Below are positions 8,557 through 51,343 of a DNA stretch of 64,000 nucleotides, piece after piece. Within the stretch, counting starts at the first letter, position 1; each line of letters starts with the position of its first letter. Position numbers and translations under genes: made by a program. The DNA comes from Anaerotruncus massiliensis (ex Togo et al. 2026). Its GTDB lineage: Bacteria; Bacillota; Clostridia; Oscillospirales; Ruminococcaceae. The stretch is taken from positions 2,108,541 to 2,172,540 of the forward strand of contig NZ_LT962687.1 in the NCBI RefSeq assembly GCF_900199635.1. The letters run 5' to 3'. The notes under the pieces were generated by a model. The model saw only the letters and a program-made list of their open reading frames with translations, was not told where the DNA came from and did no database searches.

Positions 8557-9090
8557 CACCTCACGGAGCGCGCCTGTGGCGGTTGTCCGCGCCGCGCCTG
8601 AGCCCAACATTTTGAAGGGGTCCGGGGGAACCTTTTTCAAAAGCTGCAGGCCCGTTCCCCGGCCGCGTCTCACGGGGCGCGCCTGCGGCGGTTGTCCGCG
8701 CCACGCCTGAACCCAACATTTTGAAGGGGTCCGGGGGAACCTTTTTCAAAAGTTGCAGGCCCGTTCCCCGGCTGCGCCTCACGGGGCGCGCCTGCGGCGA
8801 TTGTCCGCGCCGCGCCAGAGCCCAACATTTTGAAGGGGTCCGGGGGAACCTTTTTCAAAGGTTGCAGGCCCGTACCCCCGGCCGCGTCTCACGGGGCGCG
8901 CCTGCGGCGGTTGTCCGCGCCACGCCTGAACCCAACGTTTTGAAGGGGTCCAGGGGAAACTTTTTCAAAGGTTGCAGGCCCGTACCCCCGGCCGCGTCTC
9001 ACGGGGCGCGCCTGCGGCGGTTGTCCGCGCCACGCCTGAACCCAACATTTTGAAGGGGTCCAGGGGAAACTTTTTCAAAAGTTTCCCCTG
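8557..9090. repeat. Tandem repeat, about 109-110 bp unit, five copies
   Basis: The phrase CCCAACATTTTGAAGGGG recurs at 8603, 8712, 8821, 8931 (one change) and 9041, giving periods of 109, 109, 110 and 110. Each unit also carries GGGGGAACCTTTTTCAAAAG and a GC-rich GCGCGCCTGCGGCGGTTGTC part. The last copy ends in a full palindrome at 9060-9090 (CCAGGGGAAACTTTT, TCA, then its complement). Open frames in the array are by-products: the period is not a multiple of three. This fills the gap between rsmE and the VanY gene. Confidence 0.9.
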
Positions 9091-23968: not shown

Positions 23969-24002
23969 GCCGGCCCCGCTTTCCGGAGAAAGCGGAACCG
24001 GC
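23969..24002 (-). terminator. Terminator of the surface-protein operon
   Basis: GCCGGTTCCGCTTTC / GAAAGCGGGGCCGGC stem with a 4-nt loop, then TTTTTC on the minus strand. Confidence 0.85.
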
Positions 24003-24016
24003 AGGGAAACGCATGG

Positions 24017-24502
24017 TTACGGGTCCTGTTTCCGCCGCGCGCAGAGCGCGGCGGCCGCGCCCGACGACGCGAGCAGCGCAAAGAGCAGCGCGGGCGGCAG
24101 GGAGCCGTCGCCCGTGTCGGGGATCGGCGAGACCGGGATGGGGATCTCCTCGATGATCTTCACGTCGAGCGGGACGAGAGGGCGCAGGATGCCGCCGGAA
24201 TCGCCCGAACCGCCGCCCGAGCTCCCGCCGCCCGAGGGCGCCTTTTCAATCGTGAGGAAAAAGGCGGTCGAGGCCTGGAGCCTGCCGTCCTCGCCGAGCG
24301 TGAAATCGCCCGGGTCCCCCACCTCGGTGCCCGAGGGGCTGCCGGTCTCCTCCTCCGGAGTGCCCGCCCGGCCGGCGGCCGCCGGAAGGGACGGATCGAT
24401 CACCTCTCCCGTATCGTCCGGCGCGGCCAGCGCCGTCACGCCGGGAAGCAGCAGGCAGAGGCTCAGGAGACACCCCGCAAGCAGCCTGATCATTCGTTTC
24501 AT
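24017..24502 (-). CDS. Secreted protein with a C-terminal sortase-type anchor (IPDTG)
   Basis: 161 residues: signal peptide (about 1-27, ending TALAA), a Pro/Gly/Ser-rich low-complexity middle with a GGGSSGGGSGDSGG linker, then the wall-sorting pattern IPDTGD, a hydrophobic stretch (PPALLFALLASSGAAAALC) and an ARRK tail. IPDTG is a variant of LPXTG. No sortase gene lies in the window. The GGGAGGG ribosome site supports the ATG. Last gene of the surface operon; its role may be a small wall-linked adaptor for the secreted partners (inference). Confidence 0.75.
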   Translation of the reverse strand: MKRMIRLLAGCLLSLCLLLPGVTALAAPDDTGEVIDPSLPAAAGRAGTPEEETGSPSGTEVGDPGDFTLGEDGRLQASTAFFLTIEKAPSGGGSSGGGSGDSGGILRPLVPLDVKIIEEIPIPVSPIPDTGDGSLPPALLFALLASSGAAAALCARRKQDP

Positions 24503-24518
24503 TCTGGTCCCTCCCCTG

Positions 24519-25067
24519 TCAGTTTAAAACCGTGATGGTCATTTTGGCGCCCGCCGAACCGACGTACTCCTCCGTTTCGAGTGCGTAGGCGTTGAAGACC
24601 GCGGTCGCGAGATATTCGCCCTTTTCCAGTTCCACGTCGAGCTTTGCCGACTGGATGTGGTGGTTGGGCTCGATGAGCCCCGTCTGGTAAATCAGCTCGC
24701 CCGTGTCGTCCAGCGTGATCTGCACCTGCATGAGGTACTGGTTGCCCGGCACGTTTTCGATCTGGAGCGGTCCTTCCGCCTTCCCGTTCGTAAAGGTGGG
24801 CGTGGTGTTGATCGAAATGTTGAACATCCCCTCGTCCACCACCCGGTTGAGCTCGGCGATGATCTCTTCCTCCGTCTTGTTTTCCAGTTGCCCGGCCAGC
24901 GCGGCCGTATCCCGCACCATGCCGGACGGCCCCGCCTTCGGGGTCCGCAGCAGGATGACCAGCAGGACGACCAGCGCCGCCGCCAGCAGCACGCAGGCCG
25001 CCAGCAGCAGCTTTTTGCCGCCGTCCGTCCGGGCTTCGGCCCTCTCGGGCGTCTTTTGCTCTTCCAT
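24519..25067 (-). CDS. Membrane-anchored surface protein, paralogue of 26014-26547
   Basis: 182 residues: cytoplasmic start, one span at about 19-41, then an extracellular beta-rich domain. The domain shares IAELNRVVDEGMFNI, IENVPGN and LDDTGE, then YQ, IQ and ATAVF-AYA positions with the 177-residue protein at 26014. I do not recognise a named family. It lies 16 nt upstream of the anchored protein. The paired copies at one locus suggest two subunits or chaperone-like partners of the secreted proteins. Confidence 0.7.
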   Translation of the reverse strand: MEEQKTPERAEARTDGGKKLLLAACVLLAAALVVLLVILLRTPKAGPSGMVRDTAALAGQLENKTEEEIIAELNRVVDEGMFNISINTTPTFTNGKAEGPLQIENVPGNQYLMQVQITLDDTGELIYQTGLIEPNHHIQSAKLDVELEKGEYLATAVFNAYALETEEYVGSAGAKMTITVLN

Positions 25068-25177
25068 ACCTTCGACCGCCTATCCTCTGTTTTTTCTATC
25101 GCAACCGCCCCTGCGGGCGCGTGTATTCTAAATTTGGGGCGCGGGGAAACCCCGCGGGCTTCGGTGGGTATTCTTGT

Positions 25178-25219
25178 AAAAGGGGCCCCGGGCCCCGCGC
25201 GGAAGGCTTCCGCGCGGGG
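25178..25219 (-). terminator. Internal terminator in the surface operon
   Basis: CCCCGCGCGGAA / TTCCGCGCGGGG hairpin (25193-25219), followed by a GGGGCCCGGGGCCCC block and TTTT on the minus strand. It would reduce expression of the last two genes relative to the 214-residue protein. Confidence 0.65.
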
Positions 25220-25267
25220 TTCCCGGAGAAATGTCTCAGGTTAAGTGCAAACAGGATATGAATCCGA

Positions 25268-25912
25268 TTACGCGGCGGCGATCGTGTAGGTGACCTTGAC
25301 GGCCAGCGCGTTGGCAGTGGAATCGCCCTTCGCGACGAAGCACTCGAGCGGGAGCATCTTCTTGACCGGGTCGGTAACGCCTTCCGCCGGGGCGTTGACA
25401 GTCCAGTCGGCGGCGGCCGGGGCGGTGATCTCCTCGTGGACGCTCACGCCGTTGATATAGAGGACTAACTGTTTCGCGGTCAGGTTGTTGTCGCCGGGCT
25501 TGTAGTCCGCAATGTTCAGCTTGCCGGCGGTCAGGGTCGGGCTGCCGATCGAGGTCGGGGCCTTCAGCGTCCAGCCGTTCTGGCCCGCGGATGTGATGTT
25601 CGTCACCTTGACGGCGATCTTGCCCTTATTCTCGATGCGGTACTCGGTCGGCTCTGCGGCGGAACCGTCGGCGCCGTAGCCGTACATGGCGACGGAGAGC
25701 GGAATCGAGACGTTGATCTGGGAGTTCAGATCGGGGTTGGTCGCGTCTTTATCGACCGTGAGGTTGAACGAGGTGTCCGCGCTGTACTTACCGTCCGCAT
25801 CCGGGCTAATCTGCGTGGGGTCCGCCACGCTGGTTTCGCCGGCAGCGAAAGCGGTGATGCTCAGGGTCAGAACGATGGATACCGCGAGAAGAACTGCTAA
25901 CATTTTTTTCAT
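25268..25912 (-). CDS. Small secreted protein sharing the C-terminal domain of the giant surface protein
   Basis: 214 residues with a signal peptide ending AFAAGE (about 1-24). The mature part is one beta-rich domain with YGYGADGSAAEPTEYRI and an ending of FVAKGDSTANALAVKVTYTI. The same landmarks (YGYGADGSVAVPTNYGI and IAKGEDSTTGKQLAQVTYTV) close the 3540-residue protein. The shared module may be an assembly or attachment domain. It has a strong AGGAGG ribosome site and a terminator behind it, so probably a highly made subunit. The family is unknown to me. Confidence 0.75.
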   Translation of the reverse strand: MKKMLAVLLAVSIVLTLSITAFAAGETSVADPTQISPDADGKYSADTSFNLTVDKDATNPDLNSQINVSIPLSVAMYGYGADGSAAEPTEYRIENKGKIAVKVTNITSAGQNGWTLKAPTSIGSPTLTAGKLNIADYKPGDNNLTAKQLVLYINGVSVHEEITAPAAADWTVNAPAEGVTDPVKKMLPLECFVAKGDSTANALAVKVTYTIAAA

Positions 25913-26013
25913 GATTTTTGACCTCCTGATGTTGATATGATATGGGTTTTATAATGACGTTTGATGAATGACCGTTTCGCTCGCATTCCCCCTTCTGCCG
26001 ATACGCGGCCGCC

Positions 26014-26547
26014 TCAGCCTCCCACTTCCAGTTGGATCTTTGCGGCCGCCTGGCCGACGCGGGTGTGCGCCTCATCCTGAGCGTAGGCGGTAAATACCGC
26101 GGTTGCGTAATAGAAACCCTCGGGCAGCTCCTCGTCGAGCCTGATTTTCTGTATGTATTGGCCCGGCTTGATGCCCTTGGATTGGTAAACGGTTTCCCCG
26201 GTGTCGTCCAAAACGATTGACACCGTCATGTTGTAGCGGTTTCCCGGGACATTCTCGATGTTCGCGACGCCCTCGCCCTTTGCGTCCGGGAAGGTGATGT
26301 AGGAATTGATCGCGATGTTGAACATGCCTTCGTCCACCACCCGGTTGAGCTCGGCGATGACCTCCTCCTCGCTCTTTCCCGGCAGCGCGCCGGTCAGCGC
26401 GCTCACGTCAAAGAAGCTGTCCTGCCGGTGGCTGCTGCGCCACCAGAAAAATCCCGCAGCCGCTGCCGCGACCAGAACAACCGCGATTCCCGCGGCAAGC
26501 CATGCGCGTCCCCGCTTTTTCCGCGGGGCGCTTTCGGTCTCGTTCAT
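26014..26547 (-). CDS. Membrane-anchored surface protein, paralogue of 24519-25067
   Basis: 177 residues: a basic start (RKKRGR), one span at about 16-36, then an extracellular domain with IAELNRVVDEGMFNIAIN, IENVPGNRYNM and VLDDTGETVYQ. It is clearly homologous to the protein at 24519-25067. Its ATG is 14 nt after the stop of the giant gene with GAGGAGGTGATGTGA upstream, so the two are co-translated. Confidence 0.7.
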   Translation of the reverse strand: MNETESAPRKKRGRAWLAAGIAVVLVAAAAAGFFWWRSSHRQDSFFDVSALTGALPGKSEEEVIAELNRVVDEGMFNIAINSYITFPDAKGEGVANIENVPGNRYNMTVSIVLDDTGETVYQSKGIKPGQYIQKIRLDEELPEGFYYATAVFTAYAQDEAHTRVGQAAAKIQLEVGG

Positions 26548-26561
26548 TTCACATCACCTCC

Positions 26562-29500
26562 TCAGCTCACGCTCTCGGGCGAAATGCCCACCGTATAGGT
26601 CACCTGGGCGAGCTGCTTCCCGGTCGTGCTGTCCTCGCCCTTGGCGATGTAGCTCTCGATCGCGATCGGGTAGGAGACCCACGCCCCCTCGGACGCCGCG
26701 CCCGCGATCGCCCAGCCGGTGAAGTCCGCGCCCGCCATCCAGCTTCCGCCCGCGGAAGCGGTCGTGATCTGCTGGTCCGCCAGCCGCAGGGTCGCCTGCC
26801 CGTGGGACATCTGGTTCTTGTTGACGAGGTAGGTCCTGTCCGCGCCGTCCACGAAGGAGGAGGGGTCCATGAGCCGGAAGCCCGAAGCGGCCTCCGCCGA
26901 GAGCCCCGTCACCTTGATCGGGAAGTTGGAGCCGTTCTGGATGCCGTAGTTCGTCGGGACCGCCACCGAACCGTCCGCGCCGTAGCCGTAGGACTGGACG
27001 GTGAGCGGCAGGGTCGCGTTGATCGCCGCGGGCTGCATCAGGAATTTGACCTCGGCGGAGCTTTCGGCTTTTTTCGTCTCCGTGCCGCCGTCCAGCAGCG
27101 ACAGGTTCATGCCCAGTGTGCCGGTGTGTCGCTCCGCGATCGCATTGGCGTTATATACCTCTATTTTGAAAGGATGTGCCTCATTGGCCGCCACGTCGAC
27201 CGACATTTGTGTATCGCCCGGACTGACGCTCATGTATTGGGTACCGTCATGCCGCATAAACGCAATGTTCTTCATGGCGTCTTCGCTGCCCCAGGTGGTC
27301 CGATATATCTGGGGATTGACATAATTGGTGGTTCCCCAGTCGATAGTAAATCCATCGTCCGGGGTATACTGGTAGCTTCCCACCCCCAGCTTCATGGCCT
27401 TGTTATAACCACTGCGCACCGTGAAGGTCGCCGCGTCGTTGGGAACCATCGACGCCAACTCGACCGAAGTGGTCAGCGCGTCGTTTCCGGCGCTGTAGGC
27501 GAGCTCCCAGAGGGAGAGCACCGCCGGGTCGCTGAGCAGGGTTTCCGCGGAGTCGCCGGTCCCATACACCGCCTCGACCTGGTATTCGCCCGCGCCGTCG
27601 GCAAGCGTCGGCGTGAAGGAAACCGTCACGGTATTGGGGTCGCCGGCGGCGGGTAACGCCAGGATCGCACCGGCCACATAGGCGTTCTTCGTCTTATTGA
27701 AGATGCGGTAGCCCGTCGGGGTGTCGCCCGCCGTCGTGATTGTGAAGGACGCCGGGGTTCCCAGCTTCACGAAGGCGTCTTCGGGCTGGGCTGTGATCGA
27801 GCGCGGATAGCCGAGCTCAATGACCTTTTTGTCCGAGGCCCGAATGACGAACGCGAATGTGTGGTACTCGGCGTGCGCCAACGAGAATTTGCCAAGCTGG
27901 TCGGTCGCGTCGTTCGTCACGCTTGAATCAAAGACGACAATCGGGCGGCCGAGATAGCAGTCTCCCCCATCCAGGGCCACGGGGATGCTCGCGCCGGAGG
28001 GCAGGTTCGCCGTGACATTGATCTGTGTTTTGCCGCCCAGGAAAATCTCCTGGCCCTCCCCGAAGCTCAGGTCGGACGAGCCGTTCAACGTCAGGGAGCG
28101 GGTCGACGTGGAGGTCATACAGATTCCGCCACCGCCGCCTCCGCTGTTGCCCGAGAAGGACCCGCCGTTCATTTCGAAGCCGATAAGCGCGTAGATCCCC
28201 CCGCCGAGCGTCGCTGTGTTGTTCTCATAGGTGCAGCGGTTCAGCGTGGTCGTTTGGGAAAAGTTTTGCATATACACGCCGCCGCCGTTTCCCGAGGCTG
28301 TGTTGTTGGAGAAAACGGTATTGCTGATCTCGTGCTTGCCCGAGGACAGATACAGGCCCGCACCGTTCGGCGCGGTGTTTTCGGACAGCGTCGAGCCGGT
28401 CATCGCAAGCGTTCCACTGACATAGACTCCGCCGCCGTTATATGTGCCGTTCAGCCCCGCCTCACAGTTTGAAACCTCCGCGTTTGTAATGGTGCAGGTA
28501 CCGCCGTTGACAAAGACGCCGCCGCCGTTGAGATCCGCCGTACACTTGGTTACGAGGCTTCCGGCGTTCATCACCACTGTTCCGGCGCCGTAGTTGTATA
28601 CTCCTCCGCCTGCGCCGTCGGTGCTGTTATTTTGGAGTACCGCGCCCTCATTCATCATGAGGGTCCCGCCCGCTGAAATGTTGATGAGTTCATGTGCCTT
28701 AATCCCGGGTGCGATCACGGAAGTTTTGCCCGAAGTGATCGCGTAGCGGTGGCCGTCGATCGTGATGTTTTCGAGCGTCAGGGTGCCGCCGTCCACGATC
28801 GAGAAGAGTGACACGCCATTTTTCAGCGCCTCAAAACCTGTCGGCGGATTGGTGGGCTTGGAGTAGCGCCGGATGGTCACCGGAGCTCCCGCGTCATAGG
28901 TCGCGCCGCCGACATAGCAGTACCTGCCGCTGAGCTCGACAGACGAGTCGACCGTCACGGTATTGACGATATAGAGGGTGTTCGCGTTATTGGATTTCAT
29001 CTTCTCATAGGCCTTGCCCAGCGTCTTGACCGCCTGCGCCGGGCTTACGCCCGTCCGCGTATCAAGGCCGTTGACCCCGTCGAGATAGACCGCGCCCTTG
29101 GCCGCGAGCACCAGGTTATTGCCGCTCGCGTTCAGGTAGAAGGCCGCCGTCACCGCCTCGCTGAGGGTGTATTTCGGCGTTTCCACCGCCGCCGTCGGCG
29201 TTGAGGAGTAGGCCACCACGGCACGGTTTTCCTTGGCGCTCGCGCTGTCGATGCCGATCGTCAGCGCGGTGTTCCCAATCGTATTGCCCGGCACGCTGAT
29301 GACCTTGCCCGTGCCGTTCAGGTAGACCTCTCCCGCGATCGACGGGCCGCCGCTGAGATTGAGCGCCGAGCCGCTGTGGTGGATTGCCGCGCCCTGCGGC
29401 GCCTTCATGTTCGCGATCGTGCCGCCGGTCATCGTCAGAATTCCCGTGCCGCTCGTCGCCACCGCGCCGCCGTTTCCGGAGGCGTTGTTGTTATCCTTGA

Positions 29501-32500
29501 GCACCGCGCCGCTCTGGACGGACACGGTTCCGCCGCTGATCGAGATCAGCGGGGCCGCCGCCGTCACGGCCGGGGCCTGGACGGTCTCCTTGCCCTGCGT
29601 GACCGCGGCGCTGTGGCCGTCGACCGTGAGGCCCTCGGCGAGCGTCAGCGTACCGCCCGTGACGTTGATGAGGGTACCCGTATTGCTTCCCGTCGTGAAG
29701 GCGGCCGGTTTGGAGTACCGTTTGATCGTCACCGGGCCGCCCGCGTTATAGGTCGTGCTGCTCTCGGTGTAGCTCCGGCCGAGCGTGATCGTGCCGCTGA
29801 CTGTAACCGGGTTCACCACGTAGATGGTTCCGCCGCCTGTGCCCGCCAGCTTCTGGTATGCCTCGCCCAACGTCTTGACCGCCTTGGAGGGTTCCGTACC
29901 GTCGCCGCTCGCGGCGCTGCGGGTTCCGTCGACGTAGATGCCGCCCTTCTCCTGGAGTTCGAAGACCTTGGTATCCGTACTTCTGCGGGCGAGCTTATAG
30001 AGCGGCGCGACGTCGTCCGAAAGGGTGTATTTCGCCAGCTCGGTATTGAGATTCAAGCTGGTGGGCGCGGTGGTGTAGGTCACGACCGCGCGCGCCGCCG
30101 CCGCGTCGTCCATGTCGAGGCTGAGCGCGGTCCCCGCGCTGCCGGCGACGCCGACGGTCTTGCCCGTGCCGAGATAGACCTCTCCCGAGACGGTCGCCGC
30201 AGATTTCACGTTGAAGGTCCCGTTTTGGTAAACCGCGCCGCCCTGCTTCGCGGCCGTATTGGCTATGGTGCCCGCGTTCAGGTTGAAGGCGCCGCTGTCG
30301 ATGCGCACCGCGCCGCCGTTTCCGGAGGTGCTGTTGTTTTGCAGCGTCGTGCCGGCATTCATATTCACCGTGCCGCCGTTCAACCGGATGATCGAGCCCG
30401 TCGCCGTAAAGTCGATGTCCTGACTGTGGCGGCCTTCGATCGTGATCGTGCCGAGGTTCAGCGTTGCGCCGGTGGGCACGACGACCATATCCCCGTAATA
30501 GGGATCGAATTCGTCCTTGCCCGCGACCGAGAACCCGGAGTAACGGCGCAGGGACTTGCCGGTGGGCAGGGTCCAGCTCTCCGTGCCGCTGACGGTCACG
30601 GGGCCGGAGATGTAGATCGCCGTGCTGCCGGAAGTCAGGGCAGCCGAAGCGGCCGCAAAGTTATTGAACGCCTTGTCGGGCGTGCTGCCGTCCCCGGACG
30701 CCGTCTTGGTTCCATCGAGGAAGACAATGCTCTGCAGGACGATGTTCTTTCCATCCTCGCCGAGGATGGAACCGGATTTGGATGTGTAGAAATTCTTCAG
30801 ATATGCCGTTACGCTTGAAAGTTCCGAACCGTCCGGCTTGACCACGACGCCCCCGGACTTAAACGAATCGGCCAGACTGACCTCATACTGCCGGGACGTC
30901 TGGGAGATCAGGCGTGAAACCTGAAGCGGATAAGAGGTTCCTGACAGATAGATGTCGCCCGAAATATCGGCTCCGCCGCCCTGTAGCTCGAAGCCCGGGC
31001 TTGCGACGTAGACCCCCGCGCCGTTTCCGCCGGAACTGACGGTATTGTCAGTAACAGCGCCGCGCACCGCGACGAACTCCGCATTGCTTCCGGTCAGATA
31101 AACGCCGCCGCCATATTGGGCAGTGTTTCCGGTAATCCGCGTGCCATTGAACTCTGCCTTCGTGTAGTCGTTCAGGCAGATTCCGCCGCCGCCATAGGCG
31201 GTCGTGGTGCCCTTCGCGGTATTGCCCGAGATGGTTCCACCGTTCAGCTGGATATTGCCGATGGCGCCGGAACTCCCCGCGGCCGCGTAGATGCCGCCGC
31301 CGCTGCGCGCCGCGTCGTTTCCGGAAATTGTTCCGCCGTTGAGCGTGATTCCCGCACCCTTTACAAGGGAAACGCCGCCGCCGCCCGAAGTCGCCGTGGT
31401 TCCATTCGCGTGGTTATTCGAAATGGTGCCGCCGGAGATGGTGAGGGACGCCGTTGCGTCGCCCACGCAGATGCCTCCGCCCGAAGCCGCGGTCTCGTTG
31501 CCGTAAATCTTGCCGCCGGTCATATCGAATTTCGCATTTTTGCCCAGGTAAATGCCGCCGCCGCCATTGCTGCTGGCGCTTCCGGTTGCGTTGTTGTTAT
31601 AGATTTCAGCGGCGCCGCTTACCTTAAAAGAGTCGATCCCCGTGGAGGCGGACGTCTGAAGATAGACGCCTGCCCCCTGGGTAGCCCGGTTCCCGTAAAT
31701 CTTCGTGCCGTCTCCCAGCGTGATTTTTAACGCGCTGGTGTCCTCGGAGGATGTCGTTGTGTTGTATGCCTGGATGCCGGGACCGTAGTTATAAGAAATC
31801 TGGCCGCCGGTGATTTCGACGGTGCCGCCGCTTGCGTAAACCCCGCCGGCGGGGTTCGCATCCGTGAAGCTGTCCCCGCCGACCTTCGCGTCACCGCTCA
31901 TCTGAAAAGTCCCGCCGCTGACGGAAACGCCGCGTCCGCTCTTATTGGCCGAAATCTGGCCGCCGCTCATGTTGAAGGTCCCGCTGGAAACGATCACGCT
32001 GCCGTTCGTCGACGAATAAGCGGAATTGTTTGTGATTTTGGCCGAACCGCTCATATTGAACGTTGATTTATAACTAAGGGAAACCGCCGCATCAGAATAA
32101 CCCGTACCCTTTGAATTCTGGATGACGCCGCCGCTCATCGTGAAGGTTCCGCTCCTGACCTGTACCCCTCCGGCATTTCCATCGAGGGTCCCGCTTGTCA
32201 TGACACATTTGGCGGAATCGCCGTAAACCACAACACCAAATTCTTTGTTGTTGGAGATGGTGCCCCCGGAGATATTGAGGGTCCCTGTCCCATCTTCATA
32301 TTGCTTGGGGACCCCCACGCCGCACCCATTGTTGTTGGTGACGACGGCGCCGCTGTTGAGGTTCATGGTCCCGCTCTTTATGTAAACAATGGAATCCGTC
32401 GAGCTGGTGAACGCGCTGGCATTTCCGTCGAGTGTAATATTTCCCAAAGTAAGGGTGCCGCCGGTCACCTTGAAGAAGGGCTGCGTATAGCCCTGCGCAC

Positions 32501-35500
32501 GCTGCAGGACCGGCGTCCATGTCGCGCCGTCGTTATTCGTTACAGCGGTCGTCGACCAGGACTGCGATCCCGAGCTGATCTCCACCGGCGCCCGGCAGAA
32601 AAGAATTTTTGCGCCGGACTGCTTGGACTTCAGCAGTGTCAAGGCACGGCTCAGGGACTTGACCGCCGTGTCTACGCTTTCGCCGTCCGCGGTGTCGTCG
32701 CCGTCTCCCGCCAGATAGATGTTCAGCCCCCCGGCGACAATATTGGGAGATTCCCCGCGCAGCGTCAGGCTTTGCTTGCTGGCGGTGCTGAGCGGGAAGA
32801 GCGACAGGTAACTTGCCGCGTCGGCTGTTCCCGCCAGGCCCTGCACCACCGTCTTGCCGACAAATGTGTCGGGGAGGGCAAGGGTATATTTATTGGTACC
32901 GGTCAGAGCGCCTGTAAGGACGATCGGCCGCTCCGTATTCTGTAGCGAAACGCCCGACGAAACAGACGGACTTCCTGCCATCTTCAGGGTACCGCTGACC
33001 AGCAATCCGGCCGTGCCGGCGGTCGCCGTGTTGGTTCCAATGCTGGCCGAACCGCTCATGGCAAAGGTCCCGGCTGTTGTCGCGTCGCCGTAGACGTACA
33101 CGCCGCCGACACTCGTGGCCTTGTTGCTGTAGATGCTGCCGCCCGACATGTTGAAGACCCCGGTTCCTTCCACACTGACGCCGCCGGTATCCCTCTTGTT
33201 TAATTCTTCTTCTGATGCCGTGTTGCTGTAGATGCTGCCGCCCGTCATGTTGATGGTGCCGCCGCTCTGGCGGATCGCACCAAAAAACAGGGCTGAATTG
33301 CCGGAAATGTTGCCGCCGGAGAGATTGCAGACGCCGCCGGAGACGTAGACCGTCTGCTGTCCGTTCGTACTACCGATTCCGATAATTGCCTTATTGTTGG
33401 TAATCGAAGCGCTTGACTGCAGCGTAAAAGTCCCGTCCTGCACCCAGAGAGCGCATCCACCAGAAGAGGACTCCTTATTAAGGATGTTGTTTGTCAGTTT
33501 GCTGCCGCTTGCCATGGTCAGGCTCCCGCCCGATACCACCACGGCAGGGCCGGTTTTCGTGTCGTGGTTTTGCAGCGTGACCCCGGTTCCCAAGGTCACC
33601 GACCCGCCGGACATCGTGAGCAGCCCCGTCTGGCTTCCGGTATTTTTTGCGGAGCCGTACAGGCCGTCAAACGTTACGTTTTGGAGCGTAATGCTCCCCG
33701 CCTGCCCTTCCACCAGGGGACCGATCTCCAAGTCATTCATCATCAGCCTCTGGAGCGTCGCGCCGCCGAAGTCGACCGTCCCTTCGTCGGTGAGGACCTT
33801 CACCGTGCTGCAGACGTAGACGATCTTGTCGTCGTCGCTGCCAAGGCCGGTTACCTTCTGCGCCGCCGCGCCCAACGTCCTTACCGCTGTGGCGGGGGTC
33901 AGGCCGTCCCGGCTGTCGTCGCCGGACGAGCCATCCACGTAGACGCCCGAGCCGACCAGAATCAGGTTGTTGCCCGACGGACCGATCGAATATTTTCCTT
34001 CCGCGTCCACAAAATTCGACGCGCAGTCTGCCACGCTGGAGAGGTCTCCCGCCGGTACGACGACAACACTTCCAGAGCCAAAGTATGGTACTCCACTGTA
34101 ATTGCTGCCCGGCTGAAGGTTGTACACCTTCCCGGCGGCCGGCTTTGCCAGAAGGTTTACAACCGCGCCGTTATCGCCCAGATAAATTTTTCCGTTGATC
34201 ACGGCTTTTGTCGGGTCAAATTGAAATCCCGTTCCCGCTACGTTCACCGCATTCCCTGACGTGGAAGTAATCGTACCGCCAATTGCCTTAAAAGTCGCGG
34301 TGGAGTACGATCCACTGACATAAACGCCGTTTGCACTGGTTGAGGAGGCTGTGGTGAGGGACCCTCCTTCCATCACAAACGCTGCGTTGGTCGTGATGTA
34401 TACCCCCCATTTGCATCCGCTTATCGACGCGTTCCCGGACATGGTAAACGTGGTGCCCTCGCCGCTGACATATAGGCCATCCGTATACATGCCGCCGGCA
34501 ATTTCGCCGCCGTCCATCGACAATGTGGAACCGGCCCCGCTCGCTTTGACAGCATAGCAGGATGAAGAGCCCCACTTGCGGAACGTGGTGCCTCCATGGA
34601 TGGTCACGGAACCGCCTTCAACAAGAACGATGTTATTGCTCACAGACGCGCCGTCCAGAATGATGTCCTGAAGTGTCAGGCTTCCGGTACTCGATACGCT
34701 GATCATGTCTCCGGTCAGGGAATCGCGCGTTACGACCACGCCTTCCGGATAACCGGAGGACGTCGGGAAGGACCAGGTTGCAGCTGTAGTAACCGGGATC
34801 GGCTTGGTTCCGGTGATACGGATTTCCTTGAGCTGGGTGTCCCTAATCAGCTGGCTTGCCCTTGCGAAGGTCTTTACCGGACGGGAAGAAAGGTCTCCGT
34901 CGTTGCTGTCTGAGCCGTCCGCCGAGAGGTAGACGGCTTTATCCGCATAGTCCGCCAGCTTATATGCTTCGATGTATTTTGTGGTGCCCCGCGCGCGCAG
35001 GCCCCATCCGGTATTGTTATCGATCGAGATTTCAAAGCAGGTTGCCGCATCCGCGGCTGTGAGGGAGGAAGCGGTCACCTGGACCACATCAAAAGGATTC
35101 GTGCCGCTCACGTGCTCGTCGGAAACGCTGAGGCGATAGAGCGCACCGTCGTTTGGTTTCCCACTGAGCTGGAGCAGCTTGGTGGAACCTTTTTCGAAAC
35201 GGATGGCGGCATCGTTGAGCATCTCCACGTCGGCGCCAAAGATGAGCTGGCCGCTGCTGGTAACGCGAATCATTTCGCCGGCACCGTCGAGTTTCAGGTT
35301 GGTAAATTGGACTACCTTATCCGGTCCGATGCCAAAGATTGGGTTCGTATGCCCGAAACGCTTGATCGTTGCATTTTTCCCATTGAACGAGAAGGACGAC
35401 GCCTCACCCGTTCCAATTGTCCACTGTGCCATATTGTGGATGATACCGTTGTCCTGTATAAGCTCGATCGCTTTTGTGAGCGTCTGGACAGGCTTATCCT

Positions 35501-37184
35501 TGGAGCCGTCTCCGGTCGTATCGTTACCGCCGGGAACTTCCACCCCATCCACAGTGGTGCTGGATGCGTTGGGGTTCCAGTAAGCTTCCGCCAGCGTCCC
35601 CGTGATCGCAAGCGGTTCAGGCGCGTCCAGGGACATCGTGGTCAGCAGGTTTTCGCCGCGGAACGCCTTGACGGTGTACACCCCGTCCGCACTCGCGGGC
35701 ACGGCGGTGCTCGCCTCCGTCACCTCCGACGGGGCGTTTTCTTCGTGGCCGTCTTCTTCGCCGCTCTTGACCGTCACATCCTCCACGGGCAGCTCCACCG
35801 CTTCCCCCTCCGCGGGCTCCGCGCTCCGCGACCGGGCCATTGCCCGCACCGCCGGCACGAACTCCACCGTGAACCGCTCCGTCCCCGGATAGGTCGACGC
35901 CATCGCCACCTCGTACTGTCCATTGCTTCCCGGCGCGATCTCCGCCGTCAGCTCTCCCAGCGAGGTCACTTCCACTTCCGTGTAGAAGGAGCGCTCCTCC
36001 AGCGGCCCCTCGCTGTCATAGATCCGGATAACATACGTCCCGTTCTTCGTCACCGTGAACTTCCGCTGGAACCGGAACGGCTCCCCTTCCCCGTTCACCG
36101 TCACCCTGCCCTCGCTCATCGTCTCGTCCGTGCTCGACGAATCAGAGCTCGCGGCCTCCGAACCGGAATCATCTGAGTTCACATCGGAACCCGCATTTTC
36201 AGAACCGGTATCCTCCGGGCCCGTCCCGGAAGAGGACGCGGCCTCGCTCTCCCCGCCCGGCGCGGGATTCTCCGAACTGCTCCCATCCGGGGCCGGGGCC
36301 TTCTCCTCCCCGGTGCTCGTATCCGCCGTCGGGTCCTCCGGCTTGCTCTCCTGTTTTGACTCCGCTGTGCTGCTCTCCGGTTTCGGCTCCGACACGCCGC
36401 TCTCCGGCAACGGCACGATCTCCTCCGCCGTGATCTCCGCCGACAGCACCCGCACCAGATTGATCCGCGCGCTTGCCGCAGCCTCTGCAAGTTCACTGAT
36501 GGGATTCGACGAGTCCTCCGCCCCGCCGGGTTTGCCGTTCTCCTCCGGTTTTCCGCTCTCCGGCGTCTCCTCCGGTTTGCTCTCTTCGCTCGATGCACTC
36601 TCTTCCGGAGCGCTGCTCACTTCCGGAACGCTGCTCGCTTCCGAGCTTGCCGCTTCCGAGCTTGTGGATTCCTCCGGGACGCTCGAAGCTTCCGAACCGT
36701 TCTCCTCCGGGCCGGAAGCCTCGGACGAAGCCGCCTCCGGATCCCCCGTGACCTTCTCCGCGCCCTCCGTGGCGCCCTCGGCCTTTCCGCCGTCCTTCGC
36801 CTCGATATGTAAGTTCCGCGTGAAGGGGAAGGTCGACACCGCCGTGATCTCCACCGCGAGGCCGTCCTCCGTGAAGACCTCCTCCTGCGTCGCCGTCAGG
36901 CTGTATTCGTCCGTGCTCCCCTTGTCGTCCTCGTTGTGGCGGCGCTCCTCGGACGGGCTTTCGCCGCTTGCGGACCCGCTCTCAGGAGGCTGTTCCCCAT
37001 CCGGTTTGCTCTCCTCCGCGGGCGCGGCTTCGCTCGCCGGCGCGCTCCCCTCTTCAGAAGCTCCCCCGACGATATCCTCCGCGTATGTAAAGACCGGGAT
37101 CGTACTCATCAGCATCAGCACCGCCAAAAGCAGCGCCGTATGCTTTCTCCAACCCATTCTCTTTTCCCATCCCTGCGACTTCAT
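26562..37184 (-). CDS. Giant secreted beta-helix surface protein (3540 residues)
   Basis: Signal peptide at about 10-36. Residues 37-370 are Ser/Glu/Pro-rich and disordered. From about 530 come seven blocks that open with a Y-[VL]-D-G type motif and AVKTL (near 532, 750, 1080, 1490, 2153, 2414, 2697). Each is followed by right-handed beta-helix rungs rich in MSGG, ISGN and GGGIY, like polymorphic-membrane-protein repeats. An Ig-like region lies at about 3130-3225, and the C-terminal domain with YGYGADGS at about 3370-3540. There is no LPXTG or transmembrane tail, so retention must use another partner. Probably an adhesin or a glycan-binding shell (inference). The ATG follows GGAGGGAATCAGGA. 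Confidence 0.85.
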   Translation of the reverse strand: MKSQGWEKRMGWRKHTALLLAVLMLMSTIPVFTYAEDIVGGASEEGSAPASEAAPAEESKPDGEQPPESGSASGESPSEERRHNEDDKGSTDEYSLTATQEEVFTEDGLAVEITAVSTFPFTRNLHIEAKDGGKAEGATEGAEKVTGDPEAASSEASGPEENGSEASSVPEESTSSEAASSEASSVPEVSSAPEESASSEESKPEETPESGKPEENGKPGGAEDSSNPISELAEAAASARINLVRVLSAEITAEEIVPLPESGVSEPKPESSTAESKQESKPEDPTADTSTGEEKAPAPDGSSSENPAPGGESEAASSSGTGPEDTGSENAGSDVNSDDSGSEAASSDSSSTDETMSEGRVTVNGEGEPFRFQRKFTVTKNGTYVIRIYDSEGPLEERSFYTEVEVTSLGELTAEIAPGSNGQYEVAMASTYPGTERFTVEFVPAVRAMARSRSAEPAEGEAVELPVEDVTVKSGEEDGHEENAPSEVTEASTAVPASADGVYTVKAFRGENLLTTMSLDAPEPLAITGTLAEAYWNPNASSTTVDGVEVPGGNDTTGDGSKDKPVQTLTKAIELIQDNGIIHNMAQWTIGTGEASSFSFNGKNATIKRFGHTNPIFGIGPDKVVQFTNLKLDGAGEMIRVTSSGQLIFGADVEMLNDAAIRFEKGSTKLLQLSGKPNDGALYRLSVSDEHVSGTNPFDVVQVTASSLTAADAATCFEISIDNNTGWGLRARGTTKYIEAYKLADYADKAVYLSADGSDSNDGDLSSRPVKTFARASQLIRDTQLKEIRITGTKPIPVTTAATWSFPTSSGYPEGVVVTRDSLTGDMISVSSTGSLTLQDIILDGASVSNNIVLVEGGSVTIHGGTTFRKWGSSSCYAVKASGAGSTLSMDGGEIAGGMYTDGLYVSGEGTTFTMSGNASISGCKWGVYITTNAAFVMEGGSLTTASSTSANGVYVSGSYSTATFKAIGGTITSTSGNAVNVAGTGFQFDPTKAVINGKIYLGDNGAVVNLLAKPAAGKVYNLQPGSNYSGVPYFGSGSVVVVPAGDLSSVADCASNFVDAEGKYSIGPSGNNLILVGSGVYVDGSSGDDSRDGLTPATAVRTLGAAAQKVTGLGSDDDKIVYVCSTVKVLTDEGTVDFGGATLQRLMMNDLEIGPLVEGQAGSITLQNVTFDGLYGSAKNTGSQTGLLTMSGGSVTLGTGVTLQNHDTKTGPAVVVSGGSLTMASGSKLTNNILNKESSSGGCALWVQDGTFTLQSSASITNNKAIIGIGSTNGQQTVYVSGGVCNLSGGNISGNSALFFGAIRQSGGTINMTGGSIYSNTASEEELNKRDTGGVSVEGTGVFNMSGGSIYSNKATSVGGVYVYGDATTAGTFAMSGSASIGTNTATAGTAGLLVSGTLKMAGSPSVSSGVSLQNTERPIVLTGALTGTNKYTLALPDTFVGKTVVQGLAGTADAASYLSLFPLSTASKQSLTLRGESPNIVAGGLNIYLAGDGDDTADGESVDTAVKSLSRALTLLKSKQSGAKILFCRAPVEISSGSQSWSTTAVTNNDGATWTPVLQRAQGYTQPFFKVTGGTLTLGNITLDGNASAFTSSTDSIVYIKSGTMNLNSGAVVTNNNGCGVGVPKQYEDGTGTLNISGGTISNNKEFGVVVYGDSAKCVMTSGTLDGNAGGVQVRSGTFTMSGGVIQNSKGTGYSDAAVSLSYKSTFNMSGSAKITNNSAYSSTNGSVIVSSGTFNMSGGQISANKSGRGVSVSGGTFQMSGDAKVGGDSFTDANPAGGVYASGGTVEITGGQISYNYGPGIQAYNTTTSSEDTSALKITLGDGTKIYGNRATQGAGVYLQTSASTGIDSFKVSGAAEIYNNNATGSASSNGGGGIYLGKNAKFDMTGGKIYGNETAASGGGICVGDATASLTISGGTISNNHANGTTATSGGGGVSLVKGAGITLNGGTISGNDAARSGGGIYAAAGSSGAIGNIQLNGGTISGNTAKGTTTAYGGGGICLNDYTKAEFNGTRITGNTAQYGGGVYLTGSNAEFVAVRGAVTDNTVSSGGNGAGVYVASPGFELQGGGADISGDIYLSGTSYPLQVSRLISQTSRQYEVSLADSFKSGGVVVKPDGSELSSVTAYLKNFYTSKSGSILGEDGKNIVLQSIVFLDGTKTASGDGSTPDKAFNNFAAASAALTSGSTAIYISGPVTVSGTESWTLPTGKSLRRYSGFSVAGKDEFDPYYGDMVVVPTGATLNLGTITIEGRHSQDIDFTATGSIIRLNGGTVNMNAGTTLQNNSTSGNGGAVRIDSGAFNLNAGTIANTAAKQGGAVYQNGTFNVKSAATVSGEVYLGTGKTVGVAGSAGTALSLDMDDAAAARAVVTYTTAPTSLNLNTELAKYTLSDDVAPLYKLARRSTDTKVFELQEKGGIYVDGTRSAASGDGTEPSKAVKTLGEAYQKLAGTGGGTIYVVNPVTVSGTITLGRSYTESSTTYNAGGPVTIKRYSKPAAFTTGSNTGTLINVTGGTLTLAEGLTVDGHSAAVTQGKETVQAPAVTAAAPLISISGGTVSVQSGAVLKDNNNASGNGGAVATSGTGILTMTGGTIANMKAPQGAAIHHSGSALNLSGGPSIAGEVYLNGTGKVISVPGNTIGNTALTIGIDSASAKENRAVVAYSSTPTAAVETPKYTLSEAVTAAFYLNASGNNLVLAAKGAVYLDGVNGLDTRTGVSPAQAVKTLGKAYEKMKSNNANTLYIVNTVTVDSSVELSGRYCYVGGATYDAGAPVTIRRYSKPTNPPTGFEALKNGVSLFSIVDGGTLTLENITIDGHRYAITSGKTSVIAPGIKAHELINISAGGTLMMNEGAVLQNNSTDGAGGGVYNYGAGTVVMNAGSLVTKCTADLNGGGVFVNGGTCTITNAEVSNCEAGLNGTYNGGGVYVSGTLAMTGSTLSENTAPNGAGLYLSSGKHEISNTVFSNNTASGNGGGVYMQNFSQTTTLNRCTYENNTATLGGGIYALIGFEMNGGSFSGNSGGGGGGICMTSTSTRSLTLNGSSDLSFGEGQEIFLGGKTQINVTANLPSGASIPVALDGGDCYLGRPIVVFDSSVTNDATDQLGKFSLAHAEYHTFAFVIRASDKKVIELGYPRSITAQPEDAFVKLGTPASFTITTAGDTPTGYRIFNKTKNAYVAGAILALPAAGDPNTVTVSFTPTLADGAGEYQVEAVYGTGDSAETLLSDPAVLSLWELAYSAGNDALTTSVELASMVPNDAATFTVRSGYNKAMKLGVGSYQYTPDDGFTIDWGTTNYVNPQIYRTTWGSEDAMKNIAFMRHDGTQYMSVSPGDTQMSVDVAANEAHPFKIEVYNANAIAERHTGTLGMNLSLLDGGTETKKAESSAEVKFLMQPAAINATLPLTVQSYGYGADGSVAVPTNYGIQNGSNFPIKVTGLSAEAASGFRLMDPSSFVDGADRTYLVNKNQMSHGQATLRLADQQITTASAGGSWMAGADFTGWAIAGAASEGAWVSYPIAIESYIAKGEDSTTGKQLAQVTYTVGISPESVS

Positions 37185-37219
37185 TCCTGATTCCCTCCAT
37201 GCCTTAACGATTCCATATT

Positions 37220-37756
37220 TTAAACAGACGTTTGATTCTCAGGTTCCAAATCCAGCGCGCTCTCCAAAAGGTAGCTGAGCTCCAGCACGCTTCGGAACTT
37301 CCGTTCCTCCTTCGCCTCCAGCCAGCGGACCGTTCCCTGCCAGCTGCTGTTCTGCCGTGCGTACACATGCACCGAAAAGGTCGCGCAACTGCCCCAGCCT
37401 TCCTGCATCACCCGTTCGTTCCATGGCTGTTCCAGCCGGGGGAGCAGGTCCTCTTTCATCTGATGGTAGCGCCTGATTCCATTCTTCCCAAAGGATCTGA
37501 GCGCGGTGTCCCGCTGGGGGAATGCCAAATGGTCCAGCAGGACGTCCAATTTCATGACCAGGTCGTGGAACCCGGTAAACGGAATCTTTTCCGCAAAACA
37601 ACCGTTATGCAATTCACCCTGAACGATTCTCAGGGGAACGGCCTCCGTAAGGCCTCCGCCGCCCGAACGGCGGCGAACCACACACTCTGAAATCGTATTG
37701 ACGTTAACGATCGTCACCGGGATGTTGCCGGAATACTGTCTGATCGCGGCTTTCAT
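37220..37756 (-). CDS. Conserved hypothetical protein heading the surface operon
   Basis: 178 residues, no signal peptide or membrane span, so cytoplasmic. The C-terminal part reads FSVHVYARQNSSWQGTVRWL, then KFRSVLELSYLLESAL, a pattern I recall from small clostridial proteins of unknown function. It begins 35 nt upstream of the giant gene in the same direction, with GGAGGG before its ATG and a promoter at 37922-37894. A regulatory or assembly role for the surface locus is possible but not shown. Confidence 0.65.
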   Translation of the reverse strand: MKAAIRQYSGNIPVTIVNVNTISECVVRRRSGGGGLTEAVPLRIVQGELHNGCFAEKIPFTGFHDLVMKLDVLLDHLAFPQRDTALRSFGKNGIRRYHQMKEDLLPRLEQPWNERVMQEGWGSCATFSVHVYARQNSSWQGTVRWLEAKEERKFRSVLELSYLLESALDLEPENQTSV

Positions 37757-37893
37757 CCGCCCGCCCTCCGTTCGTTACCGCTTATAAGTCCCAAAGATGT
37801 CACAAAAGGTACACGATATGAAATAGGTGGAATTCCCAGTAAAATATTTTTAGTTCTGAATAATATTAGTATATATAGGAAAATACTGTTAAA

Positions 37894-37922
37894 AGTATAG
37901 CACACAAAGCTCCAGATTACAA
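37894..37922 (-). promoter_or_regulatory. Promoter of the surface operon
   Basis: TTGTAA (37922-37917), 17-nt spacer, TATACT (37899-37894) on the minus strand, in a strikingly AT-rich stretch (37800-38080). Confidence 0.7.
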
Positions 37923-38531: not shown

Positions 38532-39929
38532 ATGACAACCGAACGTTCAAACGAATGTCGCCGTCCCCGCTGCGGCCGGCCCTCCTGCTGCTGCGGTCCC
38601 ACGGGGCCAGCCGGTCCCGCGGGACCCATGGGGCCAGCCGGACCCACGGGACCACGGGGAAATACCGGACCCGCCGGGCCTGTGGGGCAGCCGGGCATGC
38701 AGGGACCCACGGGTCCGATGGGGCCCATGGGGCTTCCCGGCTTGACCGGGCCCACCGGGCCCACCGGGAACACGGGAGTGGCCGGCCCGCAGGGGAACAC
38801 CGGGACGACCGGGCCGGCGGGGCCCACCGGCGCCACGGGGCCCGCAGGCCAGCCAGGGCTTCAAGGGCCCACGGGCCCGATGGGGCCCATGGGGCTTCCC
38901 GGCTTGACCGGGCCCACCGGGCCCACCGGGAACACGGGAGTGGCCGGCCCACAGGGGAACACCGGAGCGACCGGGCCGGCGGGACCCGCCGGCGCCACCG
39001 GACCAGCTGGTCCGCAGGGACCCGTCGGCGCGCAGGGGCCCATCGGCGCGCAGGGCGTCACGGGACCTGCGGGTACAACCGGACCGGCAGGTCCGCAGGG
39101 ACCCACCGGAAACACGGGCGCGGCGGGGCCTGCGGGCGGTCCCGGCCCCACGGGGCCCACGGGCGCGGCAGGCGTTTCTGTGACAGGTCCAACCGGGCCT
39201 GCCGGCGTCACAGGAGCCACCGGCGCGACGGGCGCCACAGGCGGCACCGGTCCCACAGGCCCCACGGGCGCGGCAGGTGCCTCTGTGACAGGTCCAACCG
39301 GGCCAACCGGGCCTGCCGGCGTCACAGGAGCCACCGGCGCGACGGGCGCCACAGGCGGCACCGGTCCCACAGGCCCCACAGGCGCGGCAGGCGCTTCTGT
39401 GACAGGCCCGGCCGGACCCACCGGAGCCACGGGACCTACGGGAGAAGCAGGTCCCACAGGTGCGACAGGGCCGACAGGTGCGACGGGACCGACCGGGCCG
39501 GTCATCGGCGCGGCGGCTTCCCTTTCGAGTCACGACGCACAGACCTTCAACGGGCCCAACTACGGTCTGGTCACCTTCGACCAGACGGGCAGCCTGCACA
39601 ATTTTTCCCTTTCCAACAACCGCCAGAATCTCATTGCCGGGATCGCGGGGCTCTATCTGATCGAATACGGCGTACGCGCGACGACGGGTACGCCGGGGTA
39701 CTGCACCGTCTCCTTTACGCCCGGCGGGTACGACGTGGCCGGGCGGGTCCCGCTCACGGCGAACACGATGGTGGGCGGCTCGATCATCAGCCGGCTGGGC
39801 GCGCAGACATGGGTGGGCCTGCACGTCGCAGCCACCGACAACAACACCCCCGTATCCCTCCCCGCTACGCCCGATTACCGCAACGCCTACCTGACGATCA
39901 CGCGCATCGGCCCCTACCCCGACGCCTGA
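38532..39929 (+). CDS. Collagen-like surface/exosporium protein (BclA type)
   Basis: 465 residues. The Cys-rich start ([20 protein letters not shown]) leads into about 300 residues of Gly-X-Y, mostly GPTGPT and GATGAT with Thr in Y. The register is broken by three G(V/A)SVTG inserts. The C-terminal 130 residues form a globular domain of the C1q/TNF-like jelly-roll kind ([20 protein letters not shown]). In known Firmicutes such proteins trimerise and form hair-like naps on spores, with O-glycans on the Thr residues. Internal repeats of 162 bp and 114 bp show tandem expansion. Sporulation-specific expression is inferred, not shown. Confidence 0.88.
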
Positions 39930-47920: not shown

Positions 47921-48017
47921 TGGCGGGGGCGTGTGAGAATCGAACTCACCCGGACGGCTCTGCGCCGCCCACACCGGTTTTGAAGACCGGGAGGCACACC
48001 GGCGCCCATCCGCCCCC
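47921..48017 (-). tRNA. selC: tRNA-Sec (anticodon UCA)
   Basis: 97 nt with encoded CCA. Long acceptor (GGGGGCG/CGCCCCC), anticodon stem CCGGT/ACCGG with loop CTTCAAA (anticodon TCA), a long variable arm and T-arm GTGAGTTCGATTCTCAC. It reads UGA. It lies 56 nt behind selB in the same direction and ends in the terminator at 47879-47914, so it may be co-transcribed with selA-selB. Confidence 0.95.
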
Positions 48018-48072
48018 ATATCCGCGCGGCAAAACGCCGCGCGTTTTTTTGTCCGCGCAGGTAACCGGCCCG

Positions 48073-51332: not shown

Positions 51333-51343
51333 ACCGCGCCCTC

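Follow-up and report, generated by a model that had tools for sequence, protein, structure and literature searches.

In the chaperone-usher pili (Fim, Pap, Caf1 and CFA/I), which belong to Gram-negative bacteria and involve an outer-membrane usher and a periplasmic chaperone, the tip is an acceptor only, the shaft is both acceptor and donor, and the terminator bears a donor. A Gram-positive donor-strand filament is that of TasA/TapA in Bacillus subtilis, where TapA repeats N-terminal residues of TasA (AFHDI / AFNDI) and has been proposed to be the filament starter, and where the secreted TapA segment 44-57 suffices for biofilm (PMC10151520). The Csc clusters consist of CscA, a DUF916-DUF3324 'WxLIP' protein, the small WxL protein CscB, the large WxL protein CscC and the short LPxTG protein CscD (PMC1534035), and CscD peptides have been proposed to anchor the other Csc proteins via 'as yet unknown interactions' (PMC1534035, section 12). 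Of the WxL sequences of Firmicutes, 99% come from Bacilli, and the N-terminal strand of WxL has been proposed to rearrange (PMC9772566); a WxLIP strand was predicted by AlphaFold2 to complete WxL (PMC10599100). In the present study we analyse a stretch of 64,000 nucleotides of Anaerotruncus massiliensis (ex Togo et al. 2026) (contig NZ_LT962687.1, positions 2,108,541 to 2,172,540; hereafter the window), in which an operon encodes a giant beta-helix protein (GIANT) followed by a membrane protein (TM1), a small secreted protein (SEC), a paralogue of the membrane protein (TM2) and a small wall-anchored protein (ANC), and we propose that these proteins may form a surface assembly joined by donor strands.

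The operon consists of six open reading frames (ORFs), all on the minus strand and within 24017-37922, and its features are the following, with sizes in amino acids (aa).

37894..37922, minus strand: promoter-like site, -35 TTGTAA at 37922, 17-nt spacer, TATACT ending at 37894 (consensus scan only)
37220..37756, minus strand: P0001, 178 aa, cytoplasmic, with an RQNSSWQGT motif; accessory and probably outside the assembly
26562..37184, minus strand: P0002, GIANT, 3540 aa, with signal peptide, beta-helix and C-terminal SEC-like domain
26586..27059, minus strand: SEC-like C-terminal domain of the giant, residues 3376-3533 (hidden Markov model match 4e-25); proposed acceptor without donor strand
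26014..26547, minus strand: P0003, TM1, 177 aa, with an N-terminal membrane span and one extracellular domain
25268..25912, minus strand: P0004, SEC, 214 aa, secreted single-domain protein
25748..25780, minus strand: SEC N-terminal strand, residues 45-55, ADTSFNLTVDK; proposed donor strand (permutation test)
24519..25067, minus strand: P0005, TM2, 182 aa, paralogue of TM1
24017..24502, minus strand: P0006, ANC, 161 aa, with signal peptide, linker, strand, Gly-rich linker and sorting signal
24242..24274, minus strand: ANC strand, residues 77-87, ASTAFFLTIEK, which nearly repeats the SEC strand of its locus
24110..24124, minus strand: IPDTG sorting motif of ANC, LPXTG-type (Gram_pos_anchor matches below its cut-off only)
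23969..24002, minus strand: intrinsic-terminator-like site at the operon end, 15-bp stem then TTTTT (consensus scan only)

All six genes lie where the first-pass annotation of this DNA had placed them and have the nature it gave them, including the small secreted P0004 and the small IPDTG-anchored P0006. It had also assigned them to one promoter; a promoter-like site does lie upstream and a terminator-like site downstream, both of them consensus matches, by which transcription itself is not proven. The giant begins with a signal peptide and a Ser/Glu/Pro-rich low-complexity stretch, continues with seven modules, each of them opening, by eye, with a DG..P.kAVkTL-type motif, and ends with the beta-helix and the SEC-like domain. 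Its earlier description as a beta-helix protein devoid of a wall anchor is borne out by the match to Pfam Beta_helix (E 1.9e-11, 6 stretches) and by a C-terminus in which no sorting signal is visible by eye, and NCBIfam POMP_repeat is matched barely above its cut-off (16.7 against 15 bits). The C-terminal domain of the giant is homologous to P0004 (blastp 3e-14), and TM1 and TM2 are indeed paralogous, with 58% identity across 129 residues. P0001 matches no Pfam or NCBIfam family above cut-off.

A search with P0005 finds seven TM-family genes in this genome, which form pairs at three places plus one lone gene, and the gene order of the operon is found two more times (G000:C7 near 1.18 Mb and 2.30 Mb), so that the operon is not a chance arrangement. 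In locus B a giant of 3679 aa is followed by TM1 (176), SEC (218), TM2 (182) and an ANC of 165 aa with IPNTG, and in locus C a giant of 3566 aa is followed by TM1 (182), SEC, TM2 (173) and an ANC of 235 aa with LPNTG. The giants of the three loci share 42-44% identity over their aligned parts, TM2 of loci A (the one in the window) and B are 81% identical, and the SEC proteins are 31-37% identical. The core is GIANT-TM1-SEC-TM2-ANC, and the six-gene operon is one of three paralogous copies of it. The cytoplasmic gene had been counted as a member of the assembly in the first-pass annotation, a claim that we reject: locus B has a relative 63% identical to P0001, no relative was found in locus C, the gene being thus present in two of the three copies, and the listed relatives elsewhere lie about 70 kb or more from a listed TM gene. 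Of 247 genomes of the bacterial family, 42 have matches to the P0001 family, the own genome having six; in four other genomes (G004, G051, G078 and G185) a contig bears listed matches to both P0001 and TM, the nearest such pair, that of G051, being about 70 kb apart. Being missing from one local copy, and its listed relatives elsewhere not lying near TM genes, the cytoplasmic gene is accessory rather than core and probably outside the assembly.

Evidence for a donor-strand mechanism comes from a short segment of ANC which, soon after the signal peptide, repeats the beta-strand at the N-terminus of the SEC encoded in its locus (N-termini compared side by side), that is, the donor-strand-type feature of a partner bearing the same strand, to which genome G799 is an exception (0/6). 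The SEC and ANC strands read ADTSFNLTVDK / ASTAFFLTIEK in the window, GKTDFYLNIDK / ASTRFYLRIEN in locus B and ADTQFKVI / ASTQFKVM in locus C, and the pairs of Adlercreutzia include AKTEVGVF / AKTEVGVF and TNVNIA / TNVNVA. We scored the best ungapped 12-mer with BLOSUM62 in 29 SEC/ANC pairs with 27 distinct ANC and compared it with 20,000 permutations of the loci; 30 pairs had qualified, that of L199 being dropped for having no anchor pattern, and the SEC segment of L214, which fell on the signal peptide, was counted unchanged. The mean score is 28.5 for the own locus and 19.8 (standard deviation, sd, 0.87) for the permuted ones, none of the 20,000 being as high, whereas a control segment of the same length inside the SEC domain scores 18.07 against 18.06 (9,972/20,000). 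The permutations include loci of the same genome, and since these are related the counts are not exact probabilities. Within Adlercreutzia murintestinalis (G784) the own ANC ranks best in six of seven loci (2/20,000), and in the window's genome it does so in all three (3,273/20,000).

The N-termini of TM1, TM2 and the giants have no locus match to the SEC strand, and neither, as a group, do the segments of the giants preceding their SEC-like domain (14.3 against 12.5; 1,760/20,000; n=11), that of the window giant scoring 11 against its own SEC strand. A motif model of the strand, built with the tested locus left out and run over the 130 N-terminal residues of ANC, reaches a shuffle p of at most 0.05 in 14 of 29 ANC, among them that of the window (p 0.027), and places its best site at positions 9-74 in 26 of the 29; in the N-termini of giants it reaches that level in 1 of 23. 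In two Enterococcus megaplasmids the last gene encodes a protein of 80-81 aa that is barely more than strand, linker and sorting signal, and the 80-aa one starts, after the start Met, with NDTIKVTGTLNM, its SEC having GEIPINGTLGMD (by eye).

We propose that the beta-sandwich of SEC would be incomplete and its N-terminal strand free to insert into the groove of an adjacent SEC-type domain, whether that of a second SEC or the one at the C-terminus of the giant. SEC would then be both acceptor and donor and serve as a connector or repeating unit. ANC, with its near-copy of the SEC strand and no SEC domain, may act as a donor only and form the wall end, its LPXTG-type signal in this genome leading to linkage to peptidoglycan by a sortase encoded elsewhere; none of the six proteins matches a sortase, and PF04203 sortase-family matches are found two near 0.41 Mb and one near 1.10 Mb of the contig. 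The giant would be mainly an acceptor at the outer end of the assembly, its beta-helix being the displayed part, presumably binding, and TM1 and TM2 may hold or chaperone SEC and the giant as these leave the translocon. The gene order, the shared domain, the locus-matched strand, the low-confidence placement of this strand in the predicted structure and the lack of a matched strand in the giants as a group favour such an assembly, in which donor strands form the joints, ANC provides the wall attachment, SEC is the connector and the giant lies outermost, and we consider the chances of this proposal evenly balanced. That small partners hold or polymerise the giant, as had been suggested earlier, is fitted by the ANC copy of the SEC strand; the coming together of the proteins is what we infer, as are strand insertion in trans, the number of SEC units (a long fibre or a single link), the role of the TM proteins and a ligand for the giant. 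A more specific formulation, which we offer tentatively and hold to be somewhat short of an even chance, is that of an undescribed class of Gram-positive appendage, a donor-strand fibre with a peptidoglycan-bound strand donor at its base and a giant beta-helix at its tip, occurring in Clostridia, Coriobacteriia and Enterococcus, with each locus keyed by its strand and with WxL clusters sharing the wall-strand principle by means of different proteins.

The division of acceptor and donor among giant, SEC and ANC recalls that of chaperone-usher pili, which differ in their Gram-negative setting with usher and chaperone and to which the fold matches of SEC are not significant. ANC relates to SEC as TapA to TasA, and TasA/TapA is the nearest experimental precedent, although the accessible part of PMC10151520 mentions neither a sortase anchor nor a giant cargo for it and no sequence match to TasA/TapA turned up here. 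With sortase-assembled pili (Spa, Ebp) the cassette has in common one component wall-anchored via an LPXTG-type signal; nothing points to covalent polymerisation, as SEC (P0004) has no sorting signal, and with an operon that encodes no sortase the assignment to this class was rejected.

The structural model is consistent with a free N-terminal strand in SEC. AlphaFold2 prediction of the SEC homologue of L016 from an 18-sequence alignment gave a folded domain (predicted local distance difference test, pLDDT, 74; predicted template modelling score, pTM, 0.70), in which residues 1-20, holding the strand, have a pLDDT below 50. Among the best 50 of 351 Foldseek matches of this model to the PDB 26 are chaperone-usher pilins by title (CfaB, FimG, FimA, FimI, PapA, SafA, Caf1, CupE and others), and the same 50 include the TasA fibre (8aur, rank 48, E 0.71), the archaeal thread, and TLP-1b and the Pyrodictium cannulae, the last two of which we take to be donor-strand filaments. 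A PDB sequence search with P0004 returned a single weak match, to a Fab (E 0.084), and one with P0005 returned none. The TM and SEC members scanned have no convincing Pfam or NCBIfam family; the best single-member matches, EIAV_GP90 for TM (E 0.0012) and VP4 haemagglutinin for one SEC-type member (E 0.00037), were taken as chance. Above cut-off, the family scans matched the giant to Beta_helix and POMP_repeat and the three ANC scanned to InlB-B repeats, the remaining matches being Pfam families of flanking genes.

The distribution of the cassette was followed with the TM family (E <= 0.001), the profile search for SEC being swamped by signal-peptide matches. Within the bacterial family of the window, 121 of 396 genomes have TM relatives, many of them weak matches; such relatives were also found in 24 of 391 genomes drawn from the class, five of these being the own genome and its family, and in 30 of 138 genomes of the Eggerthellaceae (phylum Actinomycetota), the family of A. 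murintestinalis. The latter genome has 20 matches, and another of its family has 24; within its 2.0 Mb, nine further stretches (L191-L199) comprise seven with TM-SEC-TM and two short contigs. The cassette or parts of it occur in Oscillospiraceae, Clostridia, Clostridiales, Eubacteriaceae and Syntrophomonadaceae metagenome-assembled genomes and in Gordonibacter and Adlercreutzia contigs. Seven other genomes of the window's genus, among the matches listed, have one or two TM matches each, so the full cassette looks patchy. Viral contigs gave no TM relative; MT837548, considered as a phage hit, was set aside, as by eye it resembles a ParB/Rep-type mobile-element contig. The two- or three-gene versions (TM and SEC) of L128, L129 and L225 adjoin genes that look ParB- or Rep-like by eye, L129 adding a larger protein with a SEC domain and L225 a similar-looking one, and these neighbours suggest carriage on integrative or conjugative elements.

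Six Enterococcus megaplasmids were matched by tblastn against plasmids and two were inspected. The E. gilvus plasmid pCR1A has genes for a large protein (761 aa), TM, SEC and an LPXTG protein (80 aa), in this order, and E. raffinosus pCX012922 has the same order, except that an IS110 element (transposase gene L223:8465-9694) separates TM and SEC; the annotation of both plasmids gives the first three of these proteins as hypothetical. The cassette on these megaplasmids is a reduced form.

Gene order was counted in 65 stretches, nearly all of which were chosen for TM matches, so that the presence of TM beside SEC is partly by design. They hold 114 TM genes and 49 small SEC genes (one overlapping fragment of 56 aa was dropped), with TM on both sides of 36 SEC genes and on one side of the other 13. 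A protein of more than 600 aa lies directly upstream in 29 of these 36 TM-flanked cases, a secreted or anchored protein directly downstream in 29, and both in 23; start codons are uncurated, and contig ends or start calls may explain some of the misses. An LPXTG-like motif (LAKTG, LARTG, FAQTG and IPDTG, among others) is present in 23 of 29 ANC proteins (27 distinct), whose sizes are 161, 165 and 235 aa in the own genome and 668-2492 aa in the other loci; the Enterococcus proteins have 80-81 aa. The gene set is conserved in a recurrent order beyond this genome, and in the searches made its small proteins did not turn out to belong to well-known unrelated systems, so that neither of the two findings named in the first-pass annotation as fatal to its proposal was made.

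A number of observations weigh against the donor-strand proposal. Genome G799 has no locus matching (own ANC best in 0/6 loci), although a strand of this type can be seen by eye in each of its ANC, and the three loci of the own genome are too few to reach significance. The linker preceding the strand is also locus-matched, more weakly (20.7 against 18.0; 27/20,000). In the motif test 15 of the 29 ANC fail at 0.05, in L193, L213 and L015 the best site differs from the strand seen by eye, and the Enterococcus strand is not recognised; the Enterococcus proteins (L224:8999-9241 and L223:10624-10869) have no recognisable signal peptide upstream in frame either. Among the giants, that of L011 (1/11) has a strand-like segment that does match its SEC (score 29), and the full search (E 1e-3) finds the SEC-like domain in 11 of the 28 upstream giants and not in the other 17, the number with the domain rising to 18 of 28 when the search is restricted to their last 260 residues. 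No ANC was assigned to 9 of the 39 SEC genes with a downstream TM; the ANC of L011 and L016 have a membrane tail and no LPXTG-like motif, and those of L015 (counted twice), L020 and L208 have neither. As for the structural model, the low pLDDT of the N-terminal strand in this one homologue fits a free strand and is no proof of it, as poor alignment cover there could also explain it; Foldseek gave no match at E <= 0.001 (best E 0.014; 351 at E <= 10), its matches are weak, with TM-scores of 0.13-0.37, and the count of pilins among the best 50 was obtained without a control model.

The same data bear on three other explanations. The strands of SEC and ANC might dock singly on a common partner, the TM ectodomain or the C-terminal domain of the giant, without any filament, and a single giant would then be displayed by a compact complex at wall and membrane. 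We regard this as rather unlikely, though it is favoured by a composition equal to that of WxL/Csc clusters by protein type, by the predicted completion of the WxL sandwich by WxLIP mentioned above (PMC10599100) and by the single SEC gene of most loci inspected. The TM ectodomains have no locus-specific match to the strand (TM2 17.2 against 17.7; TM1 18.2 against 17.8), a null result tempered by the fact that an acceptor groove need not resemble its strand, and SEC itself, not ANC alone, keeps the strand, which suits chaining. Another explanation makes the shared strand a signal that the TM proteins would read for export, processing or modification and that SEC and ANC would need for their release or placement. 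Such a signal would account for a motif that in SEC and ANC alike follows closely on the signal peptide, for the TM genes flanking SEC and for the lack of locus matching in G799, but it appears improbable for a strand that differs between loci of one genome and yet is matched within the locus, as in six of seven loci of A. murintestinalis; furthermore, the motif is rare at the N-termini of the giants (1/23), of which the inspected copies carry signal peptides, and the TM segment around MFNISI is alike across loci.

Finally, the likeness could be a remnant of duplication, ANC having captured the 5' end of SEC genes without any joint function, a reading favoured by the slight extension of the similarity into the preceding linker (27/20,000). 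We judge it very improbable, given that among the identical residues of nine hand-picked strand pairs the same codon is used at 29 of 63 only, which speaks against recent DNA copying, that the match is seen again and again in Clostridia and Coriobacteriia and, by eye, in Enterococcus, and that an analogous match is found in WxL clusters, whose proteins belong to other families.

The statement that no named system has this composition holds almost fully: WxL/Csc clusters have the same composition by protein type (PMC1534035), and no protein family shared with them was established. Both have a small domain-only protein together with a large protein ending in that domain, here SEC and residues 3376-3533 of the window giant, both have a membrane-anchored partner and a short sortase-anchored protein, the latter an LPXTG-type protein encoded within the cassette operon (ANC), and both occur at several loci per genome; in L241 and L243 the large WxL protein is annotated as pectate-lyase-like. 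The cassette TM has one extracellular domain and an N-terminal span and is often paired around SEC, unlike WxLIP, which has two domains and a C-terminal span, and the cassette ranges over Clostridia, Coriobacteriia and Enterococcus, whereas Firmicutes WxL are mostly found in Bacilli. PF13731 (WxL) matches neither P0002 nor P0004 nor any of 18 members of the SEC and giant-domain group (8 families, all shown), hhalign of SEC against WxL gives probabilities of 0.1 and 1.2, PF11797 is absent from the own genome (0/1), and DUF916/DUF3324 (WxLIP) is not among the matches listed (25 of 41 families) for 16 TM members. The full TM family aligns to WxLIP with a probability of 27.6 over the membrane helix alone, and the TM ectodomain (81 of 114 sequences) aligns to HBD with a probability of 1.7 and a P of 0.029, over 56 columns and with the same motif order; homology of the TM and SEC families with WxLIP and WxL was not established, and a remote kinship may exist. 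With the WxL and WxLIP domain tests negative, filing the cassette as WxL was rejected. The same Enterococcus plasmids carry true WxL clusters, with PF13731 matches, at other loci.

In WxL clusters, too, the short protein tends to resemble the N-terminal segment of the small WxL protein, as in NYDSNGV / NYDSNGV and, in a cluster of E. mundtii, EVRSVETEGTIGFT / EVRNVTTDGTIEFT. Over 12 pairs the mean score of a 9-mer test is 21.6 against 17.7 (sd 1.26; 28/20,000 permutations), the control segment giving 4,661/20,000, and the own partner ranks first in 2 of the 12. The 12 include orthologous clusters; in L241 and L243, which have several small WxL proteins, one was chosen after the likeness had been seen, in L245 a 'hypothetical' WxL-like protein was used, and the short proteins of L241 (no sorting signal) and of Vagococcus (not LPXTG) were counted. 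This tendency is observed in L241, L242, L243, L246, L248, L249, L251, L255 and L256. The 102-aa protein at L241:6929-7237 has an N-terminus like that of the LPXTG protein of L243 and, as annotated, no sorting signal. Strand copying in these clusters fits the proposed rearrangement of the WxL strand (PMC9772566) and the predicted strand completion by WxLIP (PMC10599100), and the sequences suggest for the short LPXTG proteins of WxL clusters a role that can be tested.

Next to the cassette, and divergent from it, the window encodes a collagen-repeat protein of 465 aa with internal tandem repeats (38532-39929; Pfam Collagen 4.6e-39). Elsewhere in the window, a 110-bp unit is repeated in tandem at 8560-9083 (4.8 copies, 93% matches), and selenocysteine genes, namely tRNA-Sec and SelB-like and SelA-like ORFs, are grouped on the minus strand at 47921-51665.

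Among the titles and abstract openings listed in searches of the open-licence literature none describes this cassette, and a wall-bound copy of the strand is likewise undescribed there for the cassette or for WxL. The composition is known in type from WxL, the TM and SEC families are without a convincing Pfam or NCBIfam match, and there is a fair chance that the cassette is a separate class of appendage. TM and SEC are two recurrent families that could be named and annotated. The proposal, if true, bears on the question of CscD anchoring raised in PMC1534035, in that CscD peptides may be wall-bound donor strands. It would also explain how very large surface proteins devoid of an anchor are attached in Clostridia and Coriobacteriia, and would demonstrate a strand-keyed specificity among paralogous loci within one cell. 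If the fibre reading is true, with the loci keyed by their own strand sequences, the fibres of one genome would not be interchangeable, and a genome with many loci could thus build several of them side by side.

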